Shown: positions 47,396 through 61,992, counted from the first letter of the stretch. The stretch: 64,000 bases of DNA from Acidobacteria bacterium RIFCSPLOWO2_12_FULL_68_19 (GCA_001767525.1 MELF01000035.1:1-64000); one strand, 5' to 3'. Notes: generated by a model not told the origin, from the sequence alone. Program-made: numbers and translations.

Positions 47396-48526
47396 TCAGC
47401 CCTTGGTCGTCACCGGTGTGCCCGGCCGAATCTCGTCGCTCCCTCGCCGCACAACGATGTCGCCCTCGCGAAGATTGCCGAACACCTCGACCGTGTCGCC
47501 GTTCACCTCGCCGCGCCTGACATCCACCCACTCCGCAATCCCGTTGCGCACCCGGACGACGAACTGGCGCTCGGAGGTGCGGACGACGGCCGTCGCCGGC
47601 ACGAAAAGGCTCGTCTGGGCGCGCGCGATGGGCCATCGCACCTCGGCGTACATCCCCGGGGCGAGCGTGAGCCTGGGATTGGCCACCTCCAGCTCCACCA
47701 GCATGCTGCGGGTCTTCACGTCGAGCGAATACGCCGGGCGCGCGATGGCGCCCTGGAACGTCCGATCGGGAAACGCCGACACGCGGAAGTCCGCTTTCGT
47801 CCCGCGCATGATGGCGCCGACGTACGCTTCGGGGACGGGCACCGTGAGGCGGAGCCGTGACACCTGCTCGATTCGGACCATCGACCCCGCAGAGGGCCCG
47901 ACGAGGCTGCCCGGATGCACGCTCCGCTCCGTGATCACCCCGTCGAACGGCGCCACGATCTCCAGATAGGCTTCCAGCTCCGAGACGGCTTTAGCGCCGG
48001 CTTCTGCGGCCATCCCGCTCTTCATCAGCGAGTCGACCTGCGCCTGTGCCGCCTCGAACGTGCGCGCGGCGATGTCGAGATCGTTGCCGGCCACCACCCC
48101 GGGCGTGGAGCTCGCGGCCTTCAGGCGATCGAACGTGCTCTGGGCCGAGACCATCCGGGCCTGCGCCTCGGCCTGCTGGGCGTGAACGGCCTGCAGCTTC
48201 GCTTCGGCCTCTGCGCGCTGCGCCCGCAGTTCCGGCGCGGACAGCCGCGCCAGGATCTGTCCCTGCTTGACCCACGTGCCCCGGTCGACCGCGATCGACT
48301 CGACGAACCCCTCGACCCTGGCGCGAATGTCGACGGCCTGATACGGCGTCAGGTCGCCGGGCAGCGTCACCGCCTTGTCAAGCCGCTGCGCGACGACCTT
48401 CGTCGTCTCGAGAACCTCCCCCGAACCCGACCGCGCGCCTGGGCTCGCGCTCTGACCTGCAACGGCCGCGCCGCCCACGCACATCACGACGGCAACCGGG
48501 ACGATGACCGCGCGGACGCCCTTCAT
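47396..48526 (-). CDS. RND efflux membrane-fusion (periplasmic adaptor) protein
   Basis: This 376-aa HlyD/AcrA-family adaptor has a signal peptide ([19 protein letters not shown]), a lipoyl/barrel-sandwich half near 60-90 ([25 protein letters not shown]), a helical hairpin (about 95-170), the second lipoyl half ([21 protein letters not shown]), and beta-barrel and membrane-proximal domains to the end. It connects the RND pump with TolC. ATG overlaps the pump stop (ATGA), and it is last in the padR-tolC-RND-MFP cluster. Confidence 0.94.
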
Positions 48527-51500
48527 GCCCGCTCTCCTGAGTAGTGGCGGCTCATGAGGTCGTCCGGGTCGAGCGAAGGAGACACCACGCCGGCGCGGCG
48601 CTGCACGAGCGCGAACAGCGCGGGCAGGACCAGCAGCGTGGTAATTGTCGATGCCGCCAGTCCTCCGATCACCGCGCGGCCGAGCGGCGCCAGTTGCTCG
48701 GCGCCCATGGCGACCGGAATCATTCCCGCGATCATCGCGAACGTCGTCATGAGGATGGGCCGCAGGCGGCTCGTGGCGCCGCGGACCGCCGCCGCGTCCG
48801 CCGCCGCGTCCGCCGCCGCGCCCTCCTGCCGGTACTGCTCGGCGAAGGTCGCGAGCAGGATCGCGTTGGCGACCGCCACGCCGATCGCCATGATCGCCCC
48901 CATGAAGGACTGCACGTTCAGCGTGCTTCCCGTCAGGAGCAGGCCGAGCGCGACGCCGGCCATCACCGCCGGGATCGTGCCGATGACAATGAGTGCGATC
49001 TTGAGAGACTGGAAGTAGGCTGCCAGCAGCAGGAAGATCGCCACAATCGCCAGCGCCAGTCCGACTCGGAGGCCGTCGAGCGTCTGCTGCATCGGCGCCA
49101 CCTGGCCGCGCACGCTGACGGTGACGCCGGCGGGCGGATCGCCGGCCCGGGACACCGCGGCCAGCACCTCGTTCGACGCGGTGCCGAGATCCGCGCGGTG
49201 CACGTTGGCGGTCAGCGTGATCATGCGCTGCTGGTTGTAGCGGGTGTATTCGCCGACGGCCGTGCCCTGCGACACCGTCGCCACGTCGCCGAGCAAGGGC
49301 CGCGGGGCGCCGTTCTGCATGACGGGCACGTTGATGACGTCTTCGACCGATGACATCACGTGCTGCGGGACTTCCACCTGCACCTGATAGGCGATGCCCG
49401 TACTGGGATCGGCCCAGTAGTTGGGGGTCACGAACCGGCTCGACGAGGTGGCGGCCACGAGCGAGCGGCCAACGTCCTCGACGGTGACGCCCAACTGGCC
49501 CGCTCGTTCCCGGTCGATCTGGACCTGGAGCACCGGATAATCGAGCGCCTGCCCGAACTGGAGATCCCGCAGGGCCGGAATCTTCGCCATCTCGACCCTG
49601 AGCGTATCCGCGTAGGCGCGGCTGGCGGTGAGATCCGCACCGGTCACCGCCACCTCGATCGGGGTAGGCGACCCGAAGCTCATGACCTGGTTGACCAGAT
49701 CGGCCGCCTCGAACGACACGACCGCGCCCGGGGCGATCTCGTCGATCCGGGTCCGCAGCCGCTCCTGGAGGGCTTCGATGGAGACGTTCCGATCGGGTCT
49801 CAACGACATCAGGAGCACGGCTTCGTGTGGACCGCTGGTCCAAAGATGAATGAGGTTTACCGGATAGCTCGACGGCTGCGAGCCGACGAAGCCGAGGCTG
49901 GCCTGCACGTTCTCGGGGCCCACCTCCCCGGCGATCGCGTCGAGCACGTCGAGGGCCATTCCTTCCGTTCGCTCGACGCGCGTGCCGGTGGGCGCCCGGA
50001 GGCGGAGCTGGATCTGCGCCGAGTCGGCGCTCGGGAAGATTTCCGTCCCCAGCGCGCCACCGACGAAGTACACCACGGCCGCTGACACAACGAGGTACAC
50101 CGCCAGGACCGCCCAGCGCAGGCGCACGCCGGCGCTCACGACCCGGCCATACAGGTCTCGAAACCGCTCGAACAGGCCGCCAGCCGTGGATCCATGATGC
50201 TCGCCGCCGATCCACGTGTAGAGAATGGGCACGAACGTGAGCGCCAGGAAGTACGAGGCGGCCATGGCAAAGCCGACCGACAGCGCCAGCGGGACGAAGA
50301 GCGCCCGCCCGACCCCCACCATGAAGAACGACGGCGCAAACACCGCCAGCACGCAGAGCATCGCGAGCATCATCGGGACGGCCACTTCCCCGACCGCATC
50401 GAAGACGGCCCGCGCCCGCGGCTTGCCGCACGCCAGGTGGGTGTGGATGTTCTCGATGGCCACCGTCGATTCATCGACCAGAATCCCGATGGCCAGCGTC
50501 AGCCCCCCGAGCGTCATGATGTTGATCGTCTGCCCCGCGCCCCAGAGCGCGACGACCGCCGCCAGCAGCGCGAGTGGAATCGTGAGCACCACGATGACGG
50601 CGCTCCTGACGTGCCCCAGGAACAGCAGCACCATCAGACCCGTGAGCAACGCCCCCAGCGCGCCCTCGGTGACGAGCGAGCGAATGGCGCCGGTCACGTA
50701 CCCGGACTGATCGAACGCGAGGTTCACGTCGATGTCGTCGGGAATCGCCGCACGCATGCGCGGCAGGTCCGCGGTCACGGCCTGGACGACGGCCAGCGTG
50801 GATGCGTCGGCCCGCTTCGTCACGGGAATGTAGACGCTGCGCTTGCCGTTGATGAGCGCGTAGCTGGTCAGGATGTCGGAGGCGTCTTCGACGTACCCGA
50901 CGTCGCGCAGGAACACGGTCGGGCCGGCGCCGACGCGGACCGGGATCTCCATTAGCTCCTGCACGTTCGGGACGACCGAGTTGACCGGCACCATCCGCGT
51001 GAAGTCGCCGATGCGCACGTTGCCGGAGGGCGTCACGAGGTTGCCCCGCGTCAGCGATTGGACGACTTCGTCGCCCGACATGCGATAGGCGCGCAGCCGA
51101 TCCGGATCGACACGCACCACGATGGTGCGTTGATTGCCCCCGAACGGCGGCGGGGCCGACACGCCGGGCAGCGTGCCGAACATCGGGCGGATGCGGTTGA
51201 GGGCGAGATCCTGAATCTCCCCCAGCGCCCGCGTCTCGCTCGAAAAGACGAGATAGCCCACCGGGACGCTCCCCCCGTCGAAGCGCATGACGAACGGCGG
51301 CACGGTGCCCGGCGGCATGAAGGCCCGGGCCCGATTGACGTAGCCGACCGTCTCGGCCATCGCCTGGCTCATGTCGACGTCTTCGTGGAAGAAGAGCTTG
51401 AGGAGCGTCGCCCCCTGAATCGATTTCGACTCGACATGCTCGATGCCGGTGACGTACAGGAAGTGGTACTCGTAGTAGAAGGCGATGTAGCCTTCCATCT

Positions 51501-51672
51501 GCGCCGGATCCATTCCACCGTACGGCTGGGCGACGTAGATCACCGGCGTCCCGAGATCCGGGAAGATGTCGATCTTCATCCGCTGCACGGCCAGCAACGA
51601 CATCAGGGCGACGCCGATGATGGCGATGAGGATCGTGACGGGTCGTCGCAGTGCCGCGCGGATCAACCACAT
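48523..51672 (-). CDS. RND-family efflux pump permease (HAE/CusA-like)
   Basis: This 1049-aa inner-membrane transporter has 12 membrane helices with two large periplasmic loops. The N-terminus [34 protein letters not shown] is typical. TM4 carries [21 protein letters not shown], where the usual DD/DG pair is DE. A run [11 protein letters not shown] near residues 950-962 is a short imperfect repeat in a cytoplasmic loop (48787-48822). Substrate unknown; proton-driven export with the adjacent adaptor and TolC is expected. 55 bp separate it from tolC, a gap filled by a word element. Confidence 0.95.
48787..48822. repeat. 12-bp tandem GCCGCCGCGTCC within RND gene
   Basis: About three copies in frame encode alternating Ala/Asp ([10 protein letters not shown]) in a loop before a membrane helix. 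Probably replication slippage. Confidence 0.5.
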
Positions 51673-51727: not shown

Positions 51728-53170
51728 CTATTTCAACAACTCGGAAATATCGCCGCGGGCGGCGGCGACGGCGGCGAGCGCACGCCACACCCCGAGCCGT
51801 GCCACGGCATCCCCGACTTCCGACTGCAACAGCAGCCGCTGGGCATCCGCCACTTCGATGATCGTCGTCAGGCCCGCCTCGTATCTGGCGCGCGACTGCT
51901 GTTCCAGCACCCGCGCCGCCGTCAACTGAATCGGCGTGTTCTGGGCAACGCGGCGCGCCCCGTCCATCTCGGCGCGGGCCTGCTCCGACTGGGACGACAA
52001 TTCCTGGACGAGGCGGTCGTAGCTGGCGAGCTCGGCGCGCTCGTTCTGCGCCTCCATGCGCGTCCGCTCGCGCACCGCAAACCAGTCGAAGAGAGGAACC
52101 GTCGCCGTCAGGCCGGCGGCCCAGTTCGGCGTGTCGAAATCAAGCCCGCGTCCACCTCCGAGTGTGGCTCCGTTGGCCAGGGCACCGCTGCCGCGCACCG
52201 AGTAGGCCGTCTGGAAATGGATGCGTGGCACAGACGACCGGCCGAGCACGCTCTGCAGGGCACGGCTCGACGCGACCGCCGCCATCTGCGTCTCGGCCAG
52301 CGGATGCGCCGCCACGACGGGCGGGGCGATGGGCGGCGACGGCGCCGTTTCCAGCAGAGGCGCTGCCGCGATCTGGACTCCGGATGGAGCGACGCCGAGC
52401 CACTGCGCCAGATTCGCCCGGGCGATCTGCTCGGCCTGTTCGGCCTGGATCAGCTGGATCCGGGCCAACGCCAGCTCCGCCTGGGCTCGAGAATCGTCGG
52501 CGCCGGGACGCAGCTCGTTCCTGACGAGCACGGTCACAGCGCCGGCGAACACCTGCTGCCGTTCCACGTTCGCGCCCGCGGCGCGGACCGTCTCCTGAGC
52601 GACCGCGAGCCGGAGGAAGGCGTCCGCCGTCCTGACCCCCACCTCCAGCCGCGTCGCGGCGGCGCCCGCGCGGGCGCGTGTGACCTCCGAGTGCGCGAGT
52701 CCGACCGTGGCGCCGCGCAACCCGAAATCGAAGGCTTCCCATGAGAGCAGCAGGCCGGTGGCACTGCCCCAGATACTGGACGACGACACCGAGTCGGACA
52801 CCGGGCCCGAGATCGAAGGAACGGGCGTTCCCGGGAGCAGCAACCCGACGACGTTGTTCCGGGTCGCCCGGTTGATCTGGATTCCATAGTCGAGGCGCGG
52901 CAGATACGTCGTGCGCGCCAGGTCCACACCCGCCTGCTGCGCCGAGACCCGGGCCAGCGACGCCTGAATCGCCGGATAGCGCTCGATGGCGTACTGAACC
53001 GCCTGCTGCAGGGTCAGCGGGGACGGCGGCGCCTGCGCGTGGACGCGCGAGAGCGCCCCGGCAAGGACCAGCGCGAGGCAGAGCGCGAAGGAGCGGGCGA
53101 CGGGCGCCAGAGCGAGCCGTGGCGAGAATCGAATATCGCCACCGCGTGACGATATCGAACTTCGATACAC
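51728..53170 (-). CDS. TolC-family outer-membrane efflux protein
   Basis: This 480-aa protein has a signal peptide ending near residue 45 (RVHAQA), two internally repeated helical segments (SPLTLQQAVQYAIERYPAIQAS; RTADAFLRLAVAQETVRAAG; then the second half from about 260) and coiled-coil Ala/Gln-rich hairpins typical of TolC. It is the outer-membrane channel for the RND pump. GTG 53170 is the only usual start in frame before the signal. It lies 6 nt after the TAGAGT -10 hexamer, so the mRNA would be leaderless. The PadR operator covers the first codons. Confidence 0.9.
   Translation of the reverse strand: MYRSSISSRGGDIRFSPRLALAPVARSFALCLALVLAGALSRVHAQAPPSPLTLQQAVQYAIERYPAIQASLARVSAQQAGVDLARTTYLPRLDYGIQINRATRNNVVGLLLPGTPVPSISGPVSDSVSSSSIWGSATGLLLSWEAFDFGLRGATVGLAHSEVTRARAGAAATRLEVGVRTADAFLRLAVAQETVRAAGANVERQQVFAGAVTVLVRNELRPGADDSRAQAELALARIQLIQAEQAEQIARANLAQWLGVAPSGVQIAAAPLLETAPSPPIAPPVVAAHPLAETQMAAVASSRALQSVLGRSSVPRIHFQTAYSVRGSGALANGATLGGGRGLDFDTPNWAAGLTATVPLFDWFAVRERTRMEAQNERAELASYDRLVQELSSQSEQARAEMDGARRVAQNTPIQLTAARVLEQQSRARYEAGLTTIIEVADAQRLLLQSEVGDAVARLGVWRALAAVAAARGDISELLK
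53153..53167. promoter_or_regulatory. Perfect palindrome TATCGAACTTCGATA, probable PadR operator
   Basis: Seven-bp arms around a single C lie 9 bp inside the -10 box, over the first tolC codons. An imperfect related site (CGATATTCGATT on the minus strand) lies at about 53126-53141. The adjacent padR gene is the obvious candidate ligand. Confidence 0.7.
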
Positions 53171-53233: not shown

Positions 53234-53545
53234 CTACTCGACCTCGAACAATTCGCCGAAGAGTTCCCGGACCTTGGCCTTGGCGGCGATCAGGGCGCGC
53301 CGGCCGGCCGGGGTCAGCCGGTAGAGGCGGCGCGTGTGGCGGCCGTTCCGTTGCTCGGTGGCCCGGAGATACCCCTTGGCCTCGAGTCCGTGGAGGATGG
53401 GGTAGAGGGTGCCTGCGCTCGGGCGATAGCCGTGCCGCGACAGTTCTTCGATCATGCCGAGGCCAAAAATCGTCCCTTTCTCGGCATGGTGGAGGATATG
53501 CAGGCGAATGAGGCCGGAATAGAGATCCCGATCGTCCCTCGGCAT
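53234..53545 (-). CDS. PadR-family transcriptional regulator
   Basis: This is a 103-aa winged-helix regulator. Signatures: LYSGLIRLHILHHAEKGTIFGLGMIEELSRHGYRPSAGTLYPILHGLEAKGYLR, then RLYRLTPAGRRAL. It lacks a long C-terminal dimerisation helix beyond KVRELFGELFEVE, as in subfamily 2. It probably represses the efflux operon that starts 60 bp downstream, with ligand release by a pump substrate (inference). ATG 53543-53545 begins the conserved text MPRDDRDLYSG. Its upstream gap contains the OmpR-type direct repeat. Confidence 0.93.
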   Translation of the reverse strand: MPRDDRDLYSGLIRLHILHHAEKGTIFGLGMIEELSRHGYRPSAGTLYPILHGLEAKGYLRATEQRNGRHTRRLYRLTPAGRRALIAAKAKVRELFGELFEVE

Positions 53546-53621
53546 GGGCAATGGCTCGGCGGCCCGGACAGCAATTGCCAACGGCACGTTCGGAAGCCTA
53601 CTCCCGCCGGGCCTGCGGAGT

Positions 53622-53640
53622 TGTAAGGATCCTGTAAAAA
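53622..53640. promoter_or_regulatory. Direct repeat TGTAAGGA-N3-TGTAAAAA upstream of padR
   Basis: Two TGTAA boxes are 11 bp apart, the geometry of OmpR/PhoB-family dimers. It lies between the TonB-receptor stop and padR. The same arrangement is at 56957-56975. Confidence 0.6.
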
Positions 53641-53649
53641 CTTCCCTGA

Positions 53650-56600
53650 TCAGAACGTCAGCCGCAGGCCGAACTGCATCTCCCGGGGATTCCTGGCGCT
53701 GAAGATGCGCCCGAAGTTCGGCGTGCCGAAGATGCGGTTCGGCAGATCGAAGTTCGCACGGTTGAAGAGGTTGAACACCTCCCAGCGGAACTCGAGCTCC
53801 GACGCTCCACGGACCGCCCAGGTCTTCGCCAGCGCGATGTCCATGGTGGCATGGCCCGGCCCGATCACGCTGTTCCGGCGGGCGCTGCCGAATCCGAACG
53901 GCGCCGGCAGCGCGAACGCACCGGTGTCGAACCAGCGGTCGGGAGTCCGTTGACCTCGTGGCAGGTTCGGGCTGCGGAGCTGGTCGGGCCGCTGCGCCGG
54001 GCCGGCGCCGATATTCGCGTGATCGACGCCGAGGTTTACGGTGAACGGTGCGCCCGATTGCGCAATGAAGACGCCGTTGACACGCCATCGCCCGAGCACG
54101 CTCTCGACCAGCCCTCCCGCACCGGCGAAGAACGGGAGCTGATACACGCCGCTGGCAACGAACTGATGGCGATGGTTGAAGCTCGATGTCGCCCACTCGC
54201 CGGTTTCATCGAAGATGTTGCGGACGTCCTGGGGCACGTTGGCTTCCGACTCCGTCGGGCCCGGGCTGGACGCGTCGTCGGTGGAATCGGAGAGCGTATA
54301 GCTGGCCGTGTACGCGAAATCCTGGCGGAACCGGCGCTCCGCCTTCAACGTGAGCGCGTGATAGATCGACTTGCCATCGAACCTGATGGCGTTGATGCGG
54401 CTCAACGCGGGGATCGGCCGGCGGAGCTGGATCGGGCCCGGGCCCGGTTCCGGGATATTGCGAAGCGTCGCGTTGTCGGCGCCGACCGTCCACGTGCCCA
54501 TGTAGGACGTCTCGATCATCGTGCCCGGCAGGATCTCGTACTGCAGGCCGCCGCTCCACGTCTGGCTGTACTCGACGTTGTATTCGTAATCCATAATGCC
54601 GGCGCCCACGGTCCCCATGGCGGGACTGGTGAGGATGTCGCGCGTGGTGTCCGTCGGCACCCGCGCATCGACGGGCACGTCCACCTGTCTGGTGAAGAAG
54701 AACGGCAGGTTGCGGGCGAAGGCGGTCTGGACGCTGTAGGCCCACTGATTCAGGAAGATCCCGTAGCCGCCGCGGATCACGGCGCGCGAATCGTCCAGCG
54801 TCAGCGCGAATCCGGCCCGCGGCGCCAGCCGCACGGCGCTTGGGTCGAGCAACCCGCGCCCCCACCCGATTTCTTCCGCCGTGACATACGGAATCGGCAG
54901 CAGCGGCAGCAGCGGCTGTGCGCCCGGATGGACGGCGTGACCGGCGATGACGAATCGTCCGCCCGGCGCAGACACGTCGACCGACGACAGCCGATCGTCC
55001 ACATCGTACATGTGCTGATTGAACTCGTAGCGGACCCCGACGTTCACGGTCAGGTTGCTCCGCGGCTGCCAATCGTCTTGCGCATAGAGGTGGAGCCAGT
55101 TCGTGCGCCCGTTCTCGTCGCCGCGACCGATGCCCGCTGTCGCCGAGGTCGGATACCCGAGCAGGAAGTCCGCGAATGCGTTGCCGGTGAACTGACCCGT
55201 GTAGGTGAACGCGCCGCGGGCGTACTCGGGCTGCTCGGGACGCAGTCGGAGGTGGAAGTAGTAGGCGCCGAACTTGAGGCGGTGCGCGCCTCGATCCAGC
55301 GTTACGTTGTCGTACAACTCGAAATGCCGGTTGTCACGATAGACGAACGACGTCGGGTCTCCGATGGTGCTGTACTGGCCTCCGAACGAGACCTGCGGGA
55401 AGCCCGCGTCCCGAGGGTCGCGCGTGATCCCAAGCAGTCCGGTCGCGCCGGCGAAATCGACGCCCCGGTTCACGCTGGTCTGCCCACCCGCGACCGACAT
55501 CCAGCCGAACCGCAGCTCGTTCAGCAGCGCCGTGCCGAACACGTGCGTATGGCTGAGCATCATGTTGCGCGTCCGGGTGGTCAGCGATCGGCCGAAGCCT
55601 GGCACCAGCGCCTCCTGCAGGGCGCCGGCCCCGAACGGCTGGACCTCCTCGGCGTCGAACGTGCTGACCCGGCCGAAGATCTGGCCGGCGTTTCCGATCC
55701 TGTGATCGATGCGGAGGCTGATCTGATCGACCCCGCGGTCCTGCTCCTCCACGGACGTCAGGTTCTGCACGGCTCCCGCCGACGTCGGCATCGGCACGCG
55801 CGCCAGCAGCGCCGCCGCGATCGGATCGATGCGATTGGCAGGAATGCGATTGCCGGGAAACGGCGCGCAGGCGCCCGTCGAGGGGATGGTCAGCGGGTCG
55901 CAGGTGGGCGCGAAGGAGGAGAAATCACCGGCTCGAACCTCTGGCGGCGGCACCGAGAACGTCCGGGTCAGGGAACGCCGCATCCGCTGTCCTTCGTAGC
56001 TGCCGAAGAAGAACGTGCGATTCTGCATCACCGGCCCGCCGAGCGCGCCGCCGAACTGATTCTGGCGCAGCGCCCGGATCGGCTCACCGGGCGGATGGAA
56101 GTAGTTCGGCGAGTCGAACGCCTCGTTCCGGTGGAATTCGAACGCGCTGCCGCGCACGACGTTCGATCCGGCCCTGGTGGCCACATTGATCAGCGCCGAC
56201 GCCTTCCCGCCGAATTCTGCCGGGTACATTGATTTCTGGATCTTGAACTCCTGGATGGAATCGACCGACGGATTGATCACGAGATTGTTGAAGAGCTCGT
56301 CGGTGACCTTGGTGCCGTCCAGAAGGTAGATGTTGTGGCCTGAGCGCTGCCCGCCGACGTTCGGCAGCGGCCCCGCCTGCTGCAGCGCGTCGCCCCGGGT
56401 GCCGCCTGGCGGGATCACGACAGCGTCGCTCAATTGCGCCAGGGAAAGGAAGTTCCGCCCGTTGAGCGGGATCTGGACGACTTCGCGGTTCTCGATGACG
56501 TCGCTGATCTCGGCGGTGGCCGTCTGGAGCAGCGGCGGCCGGCTTTCCACGACCACCCGCTCGGCAAGACCCTCGACGCCGAGCGTGAATTCGAGCGCCA

Positions 56601-56907
56601 GCGTGCGACCGATCTCCAGGGTCACCTTCTGTATGCGGGGGGCGAACCCCGGCAGCCCCACGGTGATGTCCCACGCGCCGACACGAAGCGCCGGGAGGAA
56701 GAAGCGTCCTTCGCTGTCGGTGACGCGTTCGACGACGGCGCCGCTCTCGGCGTGCGTCGCCGTGACCGCGGCGCCGGGGAGAACACCTCCGGACATGTCC
56801 CTGACCACTCCGCCAATTTCGCCCGTGTTGGTCTGGGCGCCGGCCGGGCCACCAGCGAAGAAGGCAAGAAAGAGAACACCAACCAGATCGCAACGCCGGA
56901 TGCGCAG
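53650..56907 (-). CDS. TonB-dependent receptor (Oar-like) with carboxypeptidase-regulatory-like domain, CTG start
   Basis: This outer-membrane receptor is about 1085 aa. After the signal comes a CarboxypepD_reg-like Ig domain (GEIGGVVRDMSGGVLPGAAVTA to RTLALEFTLGV), a plug domain (EVVQIPLNGRNF; NIYLLDGTKV; AEFGGKASALINVATRAGSN), and a 22-strand barrel ending ARNPREMQFGLRLTF with terminal Phe. GTG 56808 would drop the whole signal peptide and the first beta strand. The frame upstream encodes RIRRCDLVGVLFLAFF...PAGAQ, a clear Sec signal, preceded only by CTG 56905-56907 with AGGGGGG 7 nt before it. It is third in an operon with the response regulator and kinase. Confidence 0.85.
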   Translation of the reverse strand: MRIRRCDLVGVLFLAFFAGGPAGAQTNTGEIGGVVRDMSGGVLPGAAVTATHAESGAVVERVTDSEGRFFLPALRVGAWDITVGLPGFAPRIQKVTLEIGRTLALEFTLGVEGLAERVVVESRPPLLQTATAEISDVIENREVVQIPLNGRNFLSLAQLSDAVVIPPGGTRGDALQQAGPLPNVGGQRSGHNIYLLDGTKVTDELFNNLVINPSVDSIQEFKIQKSMYPAEFGGKASALINVATRAGSNVVRGSAFEFHRNEAFDSPNYFHPPGEPIRALRQNQFGGALGGPVMQNRTFFFGSYEGQRMRRSLTRTFSVPPPEVRAGDFSSFAPTCDPLTIPSTGACAPFPGNRIPANRIDPIAAALLARVPMPTSAGAVQNLTSVEEQDRGVDQISLRIDHRIGNAGQIFGRVSTFDAEEVQPFGAGALQEALVPGFGRSLTTRTRNMMLSHTHVFGTALLNELRFGWMSVAGGQTSVNRGVDFAGATGLLGITRDPRDAGFPQVSFGGQYSTIGDPTSFVYRDNRHFELYDNVTLDRGAHRLKFGAYYFHLRLRPEQPEYARGAFTYTGQFTGNAFADFLLGYPTSATAGIGRGDENGRTNWLHLYAQDDWQPRSNLTVNVGVRYEFNQHMYDVDDRLSSVDVSAPGGRFVIAGHAVHPGAQPLLPLLPIPYVTAEEIGWGRGLLDPSAVRLAPRAGFALTLDDSRAVIRGGYGIFLNQWAYSVQTAFARNLPFFFTRQVDVPVDARVPTDTTRDILTSPAMGTVGAGIMDYEYNVEYSQTWSGGLQYEILPGTMIETSYMGTWTVGADNATLRNIPEPGPGPIQLRRPIPALSRINAIRFDGKSIYHALTLKAERRFRQDFAYTASYTLSDSTDDASSPGPTESEANVPQDVRNIFDETGEWATSSFNHRHQFVASGVYQLPFFAGAGGLVESVLGRWRVNGVFIAQSGAPFTVNLGVDHANIGAGPAQRPDQLRSPNLPRGQRTPDRWFDTGAFALPAPFGFGSARRNSVIGPGHATMDIALAKTWAVRGASELEFRWEVFNLFNRANFDLPNRIFGTPNFGRIFSARNPREMQFGLRLTF

Positions 56908-56914
56908 ACGAAGG

Positions 56915-56921
56915 CCCCCCT
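56915..56921 (-). promoter_or_regulatory. Shine-Dalgarno AGGGGGG placing the CTG start
   Basis: AGGGGGG lies 7 nt before CTG 56907 in the 24-bp gap after the kinase stop. It is the best ribosome-binding site for the receptor gene and decides the start. Confidence 0.55.
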
Positions 56922-56931
56922 GATCCGGAGG

Positions 56932-58785
56932 TTAGCGCGCGGTTGGGCGAGCAGGGTGTAAGGAGGTTGTAAAAAGAGGGGCGCCGGCACAGCGCAGCGT
57001 GAGGGTGAACGTGCTGCCCCGGCCGGGCTCGCTCGTCACGGACAGGCTGCCGCCCATCGACTCGGCCACCTGCCTGGCGAGCGCCAGTCCGAGGCCGGTC
57101 CCATGGATCTGCGAGCGCCGGACCGAGGGACTCCGGTAGAACGGCTCGAAGATGTGCGGGAGGTCTTCCGGGGCGATGCCGATCCCGCGGTCCGAGACGC
57201 TGATCTGCACCTGCGTCTCGCCTCTCGGGTCGTCGATGCTCCGCGCGCGAATGCCGATCCAGCGCTCGTCGCGGCTGTACTTGAGCGCGTTCGTGATGAG
57301 ATTCTCCACGCACTGCGCCACCGCCATCCGTTCGCCGAGGATCGGCGGCAGGTCGGGCGGGACGTCGCGATCGATCGTGAACTGCGCGGCGCGAATGAGC
57401 CCTTCGGCGCTGGCGAGCGCGGTGTCGATGATCTCCGCTGGAGGCAGCGCCTGCACGACGTACCGCTGCTGGCCGTCGCGCGTGGCGGCAAACAGCAGGA
57501 CGCGTTCGACGAGACCGGAGAGCCGGTTCGCTTGCTCGCCAATCACCGACCCGTACTCCTGCAGCTGCGCCGGGCTCTCGACAACCCCGTTGGCGATGTT
57601 GTCGGCCGCCGATCCGATGATGGTGAGCGGCGTGCGCAACTCGTGCGACACGGCCGTGACGAAGTCCATCTGGAGGCGCGCGAGCCGCTGCGCTCGGACG
57701 CTCGTGATCACCAGCATCGACAGGCTGAGGACAAGGAGGAACAGCGCGCCGAAGCTCAGCGCCAGCCCGCGTCGCTGCATGTCGGCCACGAACGCGCCGA
57801 GCGGGCCGCCGCGCCGGTGCCGCACCACGAGCTGCCAGTCGTCCGAGGTCGGCATCTCGCGCAGCAGCGGAAACCAGCTGATGCCGACGGCGGCTGTCGG
57901 GCCGCTGTTCTCCGATGGCCGGTGGAAGATCGAGATCGGCGACGACTGATCCGCCGCGCGGCCGAAGACGTCCATCCGTCCGTCGGCGTCGACCACCTCC
58001 GTCTCGCCGAAGCCGGCATCCGACGCGTAGATCACGCGCTGCGGCGGCGAGCCGCCGACCACGGCGACTTCGTAGTCGAGACCGTCGGTGCCCTGGAAGT
58101 AGCGATGCGCCAGGTCGGGCAGGATGCGGGAGCGAAGGACCTGTTCGTCGAGCTCGATGACGAGCCACTGCACCGCGCGCCCGCCCGCCGCGGCGCGCGA
58201 GGCGGCGGAGTCGAGGCCGAGCGGCCGGATGAGCGCCGGAATCGCCGGCTCGAACCGCCAGTCGCGCAGCGCCGCGCCGATGTTGTAGAAGCTCTCGGTG
58301 AGTTGACGTCCGGCCGGCGGCGCCGACTCCGGCGCCTCCGGGATCGACGCCTGGAGGTCGACGGCCAGCGTGCCGAGCGACGCGGGCCATTCCACCCGCG
58401 AAAAGATGCCGCTGTCGGCGTGAAGCCTGAACGTCTGCAGGCGTCCATCGCCGGGCGTGCGGTCGATCACGTGGACGTTCGCCACCAGCTCCGGATATCG
58501 GGCGATTGACCGCCACTCGGCGAACCGGCCGGCAAACTGGTTGACGTCGTTCTCGGGCGAGAACTCGGCGGCCATGCGGATGGTCAGGCACACCTCGGAG
58601 AGGTTGCGGAACAGATCCAGGTGCCAGTTGACCATCGACAGCTGCAAGGCGTCGGCGAGCCGCACGCCGGTCGCCTCGCTCGCCTGGCGATTCCCGCGGT
58701 ACTGCAGTACTGCCAGTCCGACGATGGCCGCGGCGGTGAGAGCGAGGACCGCCGCCAGCCCGGCCCGTTCCCGGAGGAGCTTCAT
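56932..58785 (-). CDS. Membrane sensor histidine kinase
   Basis: This is a 617-aa kinase. TM1 is at about 8-28, a large extracytoplasmic domain (about 30-330) has no family that I recognise, and TM2 is at about 340-360. HisKA has the phospho-His in VSHELRTP near 380. HATPase has the N box QCVENLITNALKYS, G1 SDRGIGIAPEDLP, F box IFEPFYRS, and G2 GTGLGLALAR. It starts 10 bp after its response regulator and precedes the TonB receptor by 24 bp. Its last codons overlap the second TGTAAGGA repeat. Confidence 0.94.
   Translation of the reverse strand: MKLLRERAGLAAVLALTAAAIVGLAVLQYRGNRQASEATGVRLADALQLSMVNWHLDLFRNLSEVCLTIRMAAEFSPENDVNQFAGRFAEWRSIARYPELVANVHVIDRTPGDGRLQTFRLHADSGIFSRVEWPASLGTLAVDLQASIPEAPESAPPAGRQLTESFYNIGAALRDWRFEPAIPALIRPLGLDSAASRAAAGGRAVQWLVIELDEQVLRSRILPDLAHRYFQGTDGLDYEVAVVGGSPPQRVIYASDAGFGETEVVDADGRMDVFGRAADQSSPISIFHRPSENSGPTAAVGISWFPLLREMPTSDDWQLVVRHRRGGPLGAFVADMQRRGLALSFGALFLLVLSLSMLVITSVRAQRLARLQMDFVTAVSHELRTPLTIIGSAADNIANGVVESPAQLQEYGSVIGEQANRLSGLVERVLLFAATRDGQQRYVVQALPPAEIIDTALASAEGLIRAAQFTIDRDVPPDLPPILGERMAVAQCVENLITNALKYSRDERWIGIRARSIDDPRGETQVQISVSDRGIGIAPEDLPHIFEPFYRSPSVRRSQIHGTGLGLALARQVAESMGGSLSVTSEPGRGSTFTLTLRCAGAPLFTTSLHPARPTAR
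56957..56975. promoter_or_regulatory. Direct repeat TGTAAGGA-N3-TGTAAAAA upstream of TonB receptor
   Basis: It has the same boxes and the same 11-bp period as 53622-53640. It lies within the kinase 3' end, about 50 bp before the receptor start. The adjacent OmpR-type regulator is the likely ligand. Confidence 0.6.
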
Positions 58786-58795
58786 CGACCCCTGC

Positions 58796-59479
58796 CTATG
58801 CCTTGAACTTGTACCCGATCCCCTGCACCGTGAGGAAGAATCTCGGCTGCCGCGGGTCCTCTTCGAGCTTCTGCCGCAGGCTGGCGACGTGGACGTCGAC
58901 GGTCCGCGTGAACGTGGCGGCGCTGTAGCCCCAGACCCGGGTCAGGAGATCCTCTCGCGAGAGCGTGGTCCCCTGGTTCTCGAGAAAGAAACGCAGGAGC
59001 TGGAACTCGCGCGCCGACAGGCTGACGACCTTGCCGTCGCGCACGACCTCCGTGCCGCGAACGTCAACTCGGACCCGTCCGAACTCGTAGACCGCCTGCG
59101 GCACCGACGGCCGCGTCGGCGCGCGGCGGAGCAGCGCTTCGATACGCGCCAGCAGCTCCGGCACCTTGAACGGTTTGGTCACATAGTCGTCGGCGCCGAT
59201 CTTCAACCCGGCGACCTTGTCGGGCGTCCGGCCGCGCGCGGTGAGCATCAGGATCGGCGTAATCACGCCCGACCCGCGGATGCCGCTGCACACATCGAGG
59301 CCGTCGCGGCGCGGCAGCATGATGTCGAGGATGATCAGATCGAACGGCAGCTGGGTCGCCTTGGCGAATCCTTCCTCGCCGTCGGCCGCGCAGTCGACGA
59401 GGTACCCCTCCTTGCGCAGGCGGTCGCCAAGCGTCATGCGCAGCGCGTGCTCGTCTTCGACGAGCAGGATGCTGTCCAT
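58796..59479 (-). CDS. OmpR/PhoB-family response regulator
   Basis: This 227-aa protein has a receiver domain with acidic pocket VEDE, phospho-Asp in LIILDIMLP near residue 51, Thr in MLTAR and Lys in VTKPF. The C-terminal winged helix (about 125-227) has VVSLSAREFQLLRFFLENQGTTLSREDLLTRVWG and RTVDVHVASLRQKLEEDP. It pairs with the kinase 10 bp downstream and is the candidate binder of the two TGTAAGGA repeats. Start at ATG 59477-59479 (MDSILLVEDE). Confidence 0.95.
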   Translation of the reverse strand: MDSILLVEDEHALRMTLGDRLRKEGYLVDCAADGEEGFAKATQLPFDLIILDIMLPRRDGLDVCSGIRGSGVITPILMLTARGRTPDKVAGLKIGADDYVTKPFKVPELLARIEALLRRAPTRPSVPQAVYEFGRVRVDVRGTEVVRDGKVVSLSAREFQLLRFFLENQGTTLSREDLLTRVWGYSAATFTRTVDVHVASLRQKLEEDPRQPRFFLTVQGIGYKFKA

Positions 59480-59531: not shown

Positions 59532-60713
59532 ATGCAGAAGCGATCGGGTCCAGTCACGGTACTGACGCTGCTGCTTGCCACCTTCCTGGCCGCAGCCTTG
59601 CTCTTCTGGACCATCGACCGGCGCAGCGCGGGCGCGTTGGCCGCCGCGGAGGCCGTCACGACGCACCTCGACCGGATGCGCGACGCGATTGCCGAGATCG
59701 GCGCCGCGCAGCAGAGCTACGTCGCGCCGGGGCAGCTCGACGAGCCGTGGTTCGAGCGCACGGCGACGCTCGTCGGCGAACTGCGCGGCGGGATCGCGGC
59801 CGTCCAGCCGCGCCTTCGATCGGAGGCGGCGGCCGCCGCGCTGCAGGGCCTTGCCGAGTCGCTCGACGCGCTCGAAGCAGCCGACGCGCGCACGCGCCAG
59901 AACCTGAGCCTCGGACAGGAGCTGATGGCGGCGGATGTGATCTTCAGCGACGGCCGCAACCTCCTGGACGGCATGGCCGGACGACTGCGCGACCTGCGGC
60001 ACGCCGAGCGCGGCGCATCCAGCGCAGCGCTGGCGACCGACGCGCGCGCGCGATGGGCCACCTTGGCCCTGCTCGCGCTGACGTGGGTGGGCGCGGCGGG
60101 CGCCTTCTGGCGCGCGAGGCCCGGCTCCGCCGCTGTGCCCGAGATGCCTCGCGGGCCCAGGGTGCCGAAGGCGTCTGAGGTGCGACCCGACACTGCAGGC
60201 ACTCCAGGCAGCCGAGGCACCCTCGAGATCGATCTGTCCGCCGCCGCCGCGCTCTGCACGGATCTCTCGCGCGTCACCGATACGGCGGCGCTGGCGGCGC
60301 TCCTGGGACGGACGGCGTCGGTCCTCGACGCCTCAGGAGTGCTGCTCTGGATGAGCGCGGGCGAGCAGCTCTTCGCCGTCCTCGGTCACGGCTACGCGCC
60401 GGAGCATCTGGGTCGCTTTGGTCCGATCGCCTGCATCGCCGACAACGCCGCGGCAGCGGCGTGGCGGACGGGGCGGCTCAGCGTGGTTGCCGGCGACGGC
60501 ACGACGTCGGGAGGGCTGGTGGCGCCGATGTTCGGCCCCTCCGGCTGCATCGGCGTCCTGGCACTCGAGATTCGTCACGGCCGCGAACAGGAGCCGGCGG
60601 CGCAGGCGGTGGCGGCAATGGTGGCCGCCCAATTGGCGACCGCGGTGGCCGCGTGGCCCGCCGCGAGCGTCCCGCCGGCGGGCGTGAAGGAACCTGCGGC
60701 CCGGACGGCGTAG
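59532..60713 (+). CDS. Membrane protein with four-helix sensor-like region and GAF-like domain
   Basis: This is a 393-aa protein. TM1 (about 9-28) and TM2 (about 178-197) enclose an Ala-rich helical extracytoplasmic region (EAVTTHLDRMRDAIAEIGAAQQSYV...), like CHASE3 or chemoreceptor bundles. A Pro-rich linker follows. Residues about 235-375 look like a GAF domain (LCTDLSRVTDTAALAALLGRTASVLDASGVLLWM...GVLALEIRHG). No kinase, GGDEF or HAMP domain is visible, so the output is unknown. It is divergent from the response-regulator gene and may belong to the same signalling unit. Confidence 0.75.
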   Translation: MQKRSGPVTVLTLLLATFLAAALLFWTIDRRSAGALAAAEAVTTHLDRMRDAIAEIGAAQQSYVAPGQLDEPWFERTATLVGELRGGIAAVQPRLRSEAAAAALQGLAESLDALEAADARTRQNLSLGQELMAADVIFSDGRNLLDGMAGRLRDLRHAERGASSAALATDARARWATLALLALTWVGAAGAFWRARPGSAAVPEMPRGPRVPKASEVRPDTAGTPGSRGTLEIDLSAAAALCTDLSRVTDTAALAALLGRTASVLDASGVLLWMSAGEQLFAVLGHGYAPEHLGRFGPIACIADNAAAAAWRTGRLSVVAGDGTTSGGLVAPMFGPSGCIGVLALEIRHGREQEPAAQAVAAMVAAQLATAVAAWPAASVPPAGVKEPAARTA

Positions 60714-60774
60714 GCGTTGCCGTCCGCCGATCTTCCTACAGCGCAGGCGATCCCGAGCCGACATCTAGATCGAC

Positions 60775-61992
60775 ATGCTCTTCCCACTTCTGCTCGCTGT
60801 GGTGCTCCTCGTCCCCGCGGCCGGATCCGCCTTTGCGCAGGTCGGCCCGACGTCGGCAGAGGCGATCCAGCTGGCCAACGACGGCAGAAGCGCGGAGGCG
60901 CTCGCCTCCTTCCAGCGCCTGGCCGCGGCGAACCCGAACGATCACGAGGCGCGGCTCTGGATCGCCCGCCTGCACGATCGTCTGGGGCATCCCGACGAGG
61001 CCGAGTCGGTCTATCGCAGCGTGCTGCTGGAGGATCCGGCCAACCTCGACGCGGCGCTCGGCGTGGCCTCGACCCTGCTCGCGCGCGAGGAAGCCGCCGA
61101 GACGATCGAGCTGCTGGAGGCCATCGAAGAACGGGCGCCCCGGAACGCGGAGGTGCTGGCGCTGCTCGGACGGGCGCACCGGCTGGCCGGGCGCACCGAT
61201 CGGGCGATCGCGTACTTCCGACGCGCCGTCGCGATCGCGCCGACCGCGGAGCATCGTCTTCGCCTGGAGGACGCGCGGCTGTCGTACCTTCATCGCATCG
61301 AGACCCGCGGCTTCACCGAGCAGTTCAGCGGCAGCGCCCCGGACAGCCGGAACGGCGACCTGACGGTGAACGTTCGCCTCTCCGAGCGGCTCCGGATCCT
61401 CGGCCGCGGACAGGTGCAGCGCAAGTTCGCGGTGTCCGAGCAGCGCGGCGGCGGCGGCGTCGAATGGCGCTGGCGGAGGGCGACTTCGCTGCGGGGACAC
61501 GTGCTGGTGGGGCCCGATAACCTCGTCATGCCCGAGGGCGACGTGCTCGGAGAGCTGGACTACACGTTCGGGCAGGCGACATGGACGGCTACGGTCCGCT
61601 ACTTCGATTTCGCCGGCGCGCGGACGACGTTCGTCTCGCCGGCGGTGTCGTGGCGGGCGTCCGCGCGCGCCACGTGGGCACTCCGCTACGCCATGTCGTT
61701 CACTGATTCGAACCGCCAGACGTCATACGAGATCGGCCACACCGCGCACGTGCGCGCCGCGTACCGGCTCCACCGGCGGCTCTGGTTGCAGACGGGTTAT
61801 GCGGCCGGTGTCGAGGATTTCGACAACTTCTCGAGCGACCGGATCGGCGACTTCCGGGCGAGCACGGTGTCCGGCGGCTTCCGGCTGGATCTGCCGACGT
61901 TGACGACCGTTGTGGGCGGCTACGAGCACCAGTGGCGGCGCCGAAACATCGACATGGGCCGTATGACCGTCGGGCTGCAGCAGCGCTTCTGA
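60775..61992 (+). CDS. TPR protein with C-terminal outer-membrane beta-barrel (YaiO-like)
   Basis: This 405-aa protein has a signal peptide (FPLLLAVVLLVPAAGSAFAQ). Tetratricopeptide repeats cover about 25-165 (GRSAEALASFQRLAAANPNDHEARLWIARLHDRLGHPDEA and two to three more). The remaining 220 residues alternate hydrophobic and polar residues and end VGLQQRF with a terminal Phe, as in outer-membrane barrels. The TPR-plus-barrel order recalls YaiO and surface-assembly proteins. Cargo unknown. Confidence 0.82.
   Translation: MLFPLLLAVVLLVPAAGSAFAQVGPTSAEAIQLANDGRSAEALASFQRLAAANPNDHEARLWIARLHDRLGHPDEAESVYRSVLLEDPANLDAALGVASTLLAREEAAETIELLEAIEERAPRNAEVLALLGRAHRLAGRTDRAIAYFRRAVAIAPTAEHRLRLEDARLSYLHRIETRGFTEQFSGSAPDSRNGDLTVNVRLSERLRILGRGQVQRKFAVSEQRGGGGVEWRWRRATSLRGHVLVGPDNLVMPEGDVLGELDYTFGQATWTATVRYFDFAGARTTFVSPAVSWRASARATWALRYAMSFTDSNRQTSYEIGHTAHVRAAYRLHRRLWLQTGYAAGVEDFDNFSSDRIGDFRASTVSGGFRLDLPTLTTVVGGYEHQWRRRNIDMGRMTVGLQQRF

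Follow-up and report, generated by a model that had tools for sequence, protein, structure and literature searches.

Two copies of an 11-bp direct repeat as predicted activator boxes of a receptor promoter and an efflux promoter in an Acidobacteria genome

The locus described here raises the question of why one short direct repeat occurs on both sides of an outer-membrane receptor gene, and of which protein reads it. The window, meaning the whole stretch of DNA that was analysed (64,000 nucleotides of Acidobacteria bacterium RIFCSPLOWO2_12_FULL_68_19, MELF01000035.1:1-64000), carries on its minus strand, in this order, genes for a response regulator and a histidine kinase, repeat site 1, an Oar-like receptor gene, repeat site 2, and genes for a PadR-type regulator, a TolC-type protein, an RND permease and a membrane-fusion protein. 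The response regulator (58796-59479, minus strand) matches the Pfam families Response_reg (1.3e-28) and Trans_reg_C (1.4e-26), as expected for the OmpR/PhoB family, and is the proposed binder of both sites; its phospho-acceptor D52 and its K102 are invariant across eight orthologues. The sensor histidine kinase (56932-58785, minus strand) has HisKA and HATPase_c domains and a periplasmic sensor domain that appears dCACHE-like. The receptor gene (53650-56907, minus strand, start uncertain) encodes an outer-membrane beta-barrel of the TonB-dependent-receptor type. It is followed on the same strand by padR (53234-53587; Pfam PadR 1.1e-18, with a match to a 117-aa orthologue), the gene for the TolC-type outer-membrane efflux protein (51728-53170; OEP 2.2e-36), that for the RND efflux permease (48523-51672; ACR_tran 4e-184), and that for a membrane-fusion protein of the HlyD/CusB type (47396-48526; HlyD_D23 2.8e-31), which overlaps the RND stop codon.

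On the plus strand, the pattern TGTAAGGA-N3-TGTAAAAA is present with no mismatches at 53622-53640 (site 2), which reads TGTAAGGATCCTGTAAAAA, and at 56957-56975 (site 1), which reads TGTAAGGAGGTTGTAAAAA. The repeat period is 11 bp (TGTAA..TGTAA). Because the minus strand carries the receptor, padR, kinase and regulator genes alike, the sense reading, TTTTTACA-N3-TCCTTACA, is taken as the functional one; the spacer is ACC in site 1 and GGA in site 2. Site 1 precedes the receptor gene and overlaps the kinase frame at its 3' end; site 2 precedes padR. The sequence-only reading had reported this repeat at both places, in the same orientation, with the same period, bracketing the receptor gene and accompanied by an OmpR-family regulator, and it was accurate in each respect. 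At up to three mismatches, the window contains these two sites only, with 0.01 expected from dinucleotide shuffles. The genome scan that the same reading had proposed was carried out, and over 4.2 Mb in 52 contigs the same two places alone were found at up to three mismatches (reversed control pattern, one). The two sites share 16 specified bases, and their flanks are unrelated. A search of five genomes, this one included, for additional regulon members, using TTTTACA-N5-CTTACA at up to two mismatches, gave extra matches at about the level of the reversed control and no common pattern among them.

The explanation that we favour, with a probability of about 0.85, is that the two repeats serve as activator boxes, each in a promoter dependent on the adjacent two-component system. 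Downstream of each site is a candidate -10 box: TAACCT at 56929-56934, 22 nt after site 1 (promoter 1), and TAGGCT at 53595-53600, 21 nt after site 2 (promoter 2), both on the minus strand. The kinase stop codon, at 56932-56934, is the TAA that opens the promoter 1 box, and a kinase stop inside the receptor promoter's -10 box is likewise seen in the closest genomes. An alignment of 11 sites from eight genomes reads TTTTACA-N5-cTTACa, then 21-22 nt, then TANNCT, with both the 11-bp repeat and TANNCT present in all 11. The nearly invariant columns are the two half-sites and, in the -10 box, the four specified bases T, A, C and T; the positions between and around them vary. No conserved -35 hexamer is present in the 11-promoter alignment, and we infer that each site belongs to an activator-dependent promoter that has no separate -35 box.

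The -10 assignment can be compared with the start codons. An in-frame ATG or GTG occurs 7-8 nt past the -10 box in six of the 11 promoters, those of padR in G000 and G035 and of the receptor genes in G015, G016, G030 and G037, and leaderless mRNAs are therefore implied, including that of padR. Leaderless genes are marked by TANNNT about 12 bp before the start codon, and such genes have been predicted in all three of the Acidobacteria genomes analysed for them (PMC3160421). In the present genome the padR GTG (53585-53587) is 7 nt past the -10 box, and G035 has an ATG at the same place; padR thus likely starts leaderless at this GTG, and an ATG-based call would probably make it 14 codons too short (53546-53587). 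The start-codon spacing independently marks the -10 box and sets the transcription start, predicted at about 56921 for promoter 1 and about 53587 for promoter 2, and it places the repeat at approximately -53 to -35. This is the zone in which OmpR/PhoB-type activators act. In G037, a run of short CCCAATGC-like repeats is located just upstream of the receptor promoter (L018 11280-11527).

It may instead be that the regulator represses both promoters rather than activating them. Proteins of the OmpR family can repress, and streptococcal VicR sites overlap the -35 and -10 regions of promoters (PMC4168254), a point in favour of this reading. Against it, the box at this locus is upstream of the -10 box, at about -53 to -35, with no -35 consensus in between. 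Such a layout is usual for activation by PhoB-type regulators. Repression consequently appears improbable, and it is from this geometry alone that we infer activation as the direction of control.

The case for this particular regulator comes from its distribution. The composite pattern TTTACA-N6-TTAC-N21..23-TANNCT occurs at 11 places in eight of 193 genomes of the class, and its reversed control in none. Orthologues of the regulator, defined by at least 72% identity (a cut-off chosen after the gap in identities had been seen), are present in eight of the 43 family genomes, the next best proteins having about 62% identity and occupying a different locus. Across the 162 genomes of the order, the orthologue is found in the same eight as the composite, and neither is found in the other 154. 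Within the family, the exact overlap of site and regulator has p ~7e-9 if genomes are treated as independent, which is optimistic since they are related and the composite was itself fitted on most of the sites. A stricter form of the composite was not found in the phylum genomes sampled outside the family. The composite was fitted on ten of the 11 sites, drawn from seven genomes. The remaining site, in G030, was missed by the original motif at two mismatches and found by the composite between a kinase orthologue and a receptor orthologue; it is an independent, true prediction of the pattern. The half-sites and their spacing to the -10 box are conserved across seven genera. Matches in three genomes were set aside as chance: those in G018 and G024, at two mismatches, lack both the -10 spacing and the regulator, and a composite match in G005 disappeared once TANNCT was required at 21-23 nt.

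These data also bear on the idea that a different protein reads the boxes, either another shared regulator or an OmpR-family paralogue, and that the adjacent pair is only linked to them. Many OmpR-family regulators are encoded in these genomes, and in three of them, G015, G030 and G037, the site and the best orthologue of the regulator are on separate contigs; the regulator found in G030 and G037 stands apart from the site, beside a more distant kinase. Because the kinase and the receptor have much of the same distribution, the regulator is not picked out by co-occurrence alone. The same three genomes nevertheless count on the other side, since the exact co-occurrence with this regulator includes them and linkage alone therefore does not account for the association. 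The site is, moreover, missing from 35 family genomes that hold many other response regulators. A different binder seems improbable. A group of paralogues of the regulator, with 55-62% identity and found in genera g2, g3 and g24 among others, occurs at a different kinase-then-regulator locus that is without the site.

PadR itself is a still less probable candidate. The repeats would then be PadR operators, through which PadR would autoregulate its own operon and control the neighbouring receptor gene. One site does lie directly upstream of padR in G000 and G035, and PadR regulators often adjoin efflux genes and repress them. No PadR orthologue (E up to 1e-10) was detected, though, in G015, G016, G030, G031 or G037, five of the eight site-bearing genomes, and this rules PadR out as a universal binder. 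In a sixth, G034, site 2 stands directly before a TolC-RND-MFP operon, and padR closes a second efflux operon on another contig. The element is also an 11-bp direct repeat, whereas PadR operators are usually palindromic. Given that padR is undetected in five genomes and elsewhere in a sixth, the likely binder is the OmpR-family response regulator and not PadR, and what stays constant downstream of site 2 is the TolC-RND-MFP efflux operon rather than padR. The sequence-only reading had predicted that one two-component system governs the receptor together with a padR-efflux branch; the exact eight-genome co-occurrence and the exclusion of PadR as universal binder support this well in silico, but padR is not a constant part of the branch. 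The two efflux operons of G034 are at L189 5503-11600 and L016 11751-17468. The closer orthologue operon (RND permease 87%) carries padR at its end, on contig C60, and its promoter probably lies beyond the contig end; the diverged operon (RND permease 57%) is the one directly after site 2.

Least probable of all is a chance similarity or a small segment duplicated between the two intergenic regions: the motif is short, the DNA AT-poor, and the TTTTT of site 1 comes after a weak terminator-like stem, but against this stand the shuffle expectation, the unrelated flanks and the conservation of half-sites and -10 spacing over seven genera, and the chance part is already refuted by the uniqueness of the pair in the genome and by the composite scans across genomes. 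A role for site 1 as part of a terminator, considered because of the weak stem before its T-run, was rejected, as site 2 has no stem.

Among known systems, the WalR/VicR box, TGTWAH-N5-TGTWAH (PMC4168254), is the closest to the 11-bp TGTWA repeat found here, one position off. The WalR/YycF/VicR systems of Firmicutes likewise have two TGTWA hexamers in an 11-bp direct repeat bound by an OmpR/PhoB-family protein, and the plus-strand reading here, TGTAAG-N5-TGTAAA, agrees at 11 of 12 positions, failing at the H of the first hexamer, which ends in G. The differences are that the sense strand here reads TTACA and not TGTAA, that the targets are a receptor and an efflux operon with only two sites per genome, and that the regulator scores 190.5 bits against a YycF cut-off of 340 (NCBIfam). 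The HLR1 element of cyanobacterial RpaB, (G/T)TTACA(T/A)(T/A) repeated with 2 nt between and a 10-bp period (PMC9241938), shares the TTACA direct repeats, and among NCBIfam models the regulator scores highest with RpaB, at 217 bits. That score compares with a cut-off of 330, however, the period here is 11 rather than 10, and the RpaB regulon is unrelated. The pho box of PhoB/PhoP is similar in having a PhoB-type regulator and an 11-bp direct repeat by a -10 box that lacks a good -35, but its half-site is TGTCA in Escherichia coli, there are no phosphate genes at this locus, and the regulator scores 196 against a PhoB cut-off of 296. Control of RND pumps of the BaeSR/AdeRS type also involves a local kinase-regulator pair adjoining a TolC-RND-MFP operon; here, unlike in those systems, an Oar-like receptor is joined in via a second, near-identical promoter, and the kinase scores 92 against a BaeS equivalog cut-off of 500. 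The regulator is thus akin to RpaB, MtrA, PhoB and YycF, with no equivalog cut-off reached among its best 25 NCBIfam models. The predicted regulon is a separate lineage-specific system with an activator box of the PhoB/WalR class, outside the systems named above.

The signal may be a small molecule. The kinase sensor (about 300 residues) has no Pfam family match, and its AlphaFold model, of moderate confidence (pLDDT 71), matches many dCACHE domains at Z ~8-10 over residues 32-336; this resemblance suggests a small extracellular ligand. In the proposed mechanism, a small ligand in the periplasm would probably be sensed by the dCACHE-like domain, and the kinase, judging from the conserved His and Asp domains, would phosphorylate the OmpR-family regulator. 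A dimer of the regulator would bind the TTACA direct repeat with its 11-bp spacing, at about -53 to -35, and stand in for the -35 contact that RNA polymerase otherwise lacks when it acts at the TANNCT -10 box. Promoter 1 would then drive the Oar-like outer-membrane receptor, and promoter 2 the padR and TolC-RND-MFP efflux operon, with padR translated from a leaderless mRNA. One sensed signal would probably turn on both the receptor and the efflux operon.

The cargo of the receptor need not be a nutrient. Nutrient uptake had been assigned to this gene by the sequence-only reading, and the receptor type on which the assignment was based is indeed found; the uptake itself came from the label only, and the protein is Oar-like. 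It matches PF25183 (8e-220) and CarboxypepD_reg (1.6e-16), a combination that we take to mark the Oar type, and no plug-domain match was seen in Pfam. In one account of Myxococcus xanthus, Oar is described as required for export of the protease PopC (PMC6434023), and uptake is therefore not to be assumed. A more speculative extension, which we hold to be unlikely, is a private two-promoter regulon that couples an Oar-like transporter, maybe for export and not import, to the RND pump as a detoxification or secretion module, in which the kinase stop codon within the -10 box could tie transcription or translation of the kinase to firing of the receptor promoter.

As predicted, this is a new small regulon whose regulation is of a clear but ordinary and well-known kind, and the underlying biological principle is already well known. 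Literature searches found no earlier report of it. Its value lies in giving an uncharacterised two-component system of a poorly studied lineage a concrete predicted regulon, one that comprises a defined predicted site, predicted transcription starts and a full list of two targets in this genome. If true, the link between an Oar-like receptor and an efflux pump under one signal would be a clue to the role of such receptors.

Two further features of the locus concern its gene boundaries. The receptor frame opens straight after the kinase stop and contains no ATG, GTG or TTG before the signal peptide (interval 56808-56934), while the G035 orthologue has a normal ATG. The start codon is possibly the CTG at 56905-56907, and the missing usual start could mean that translation begins at a non-standard codon or that the sequence contains a small error. 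At the other end, the divergent genes that adjoin the regulator (59532-61989) encode a membrane GAF-like protein and a TPR protein.
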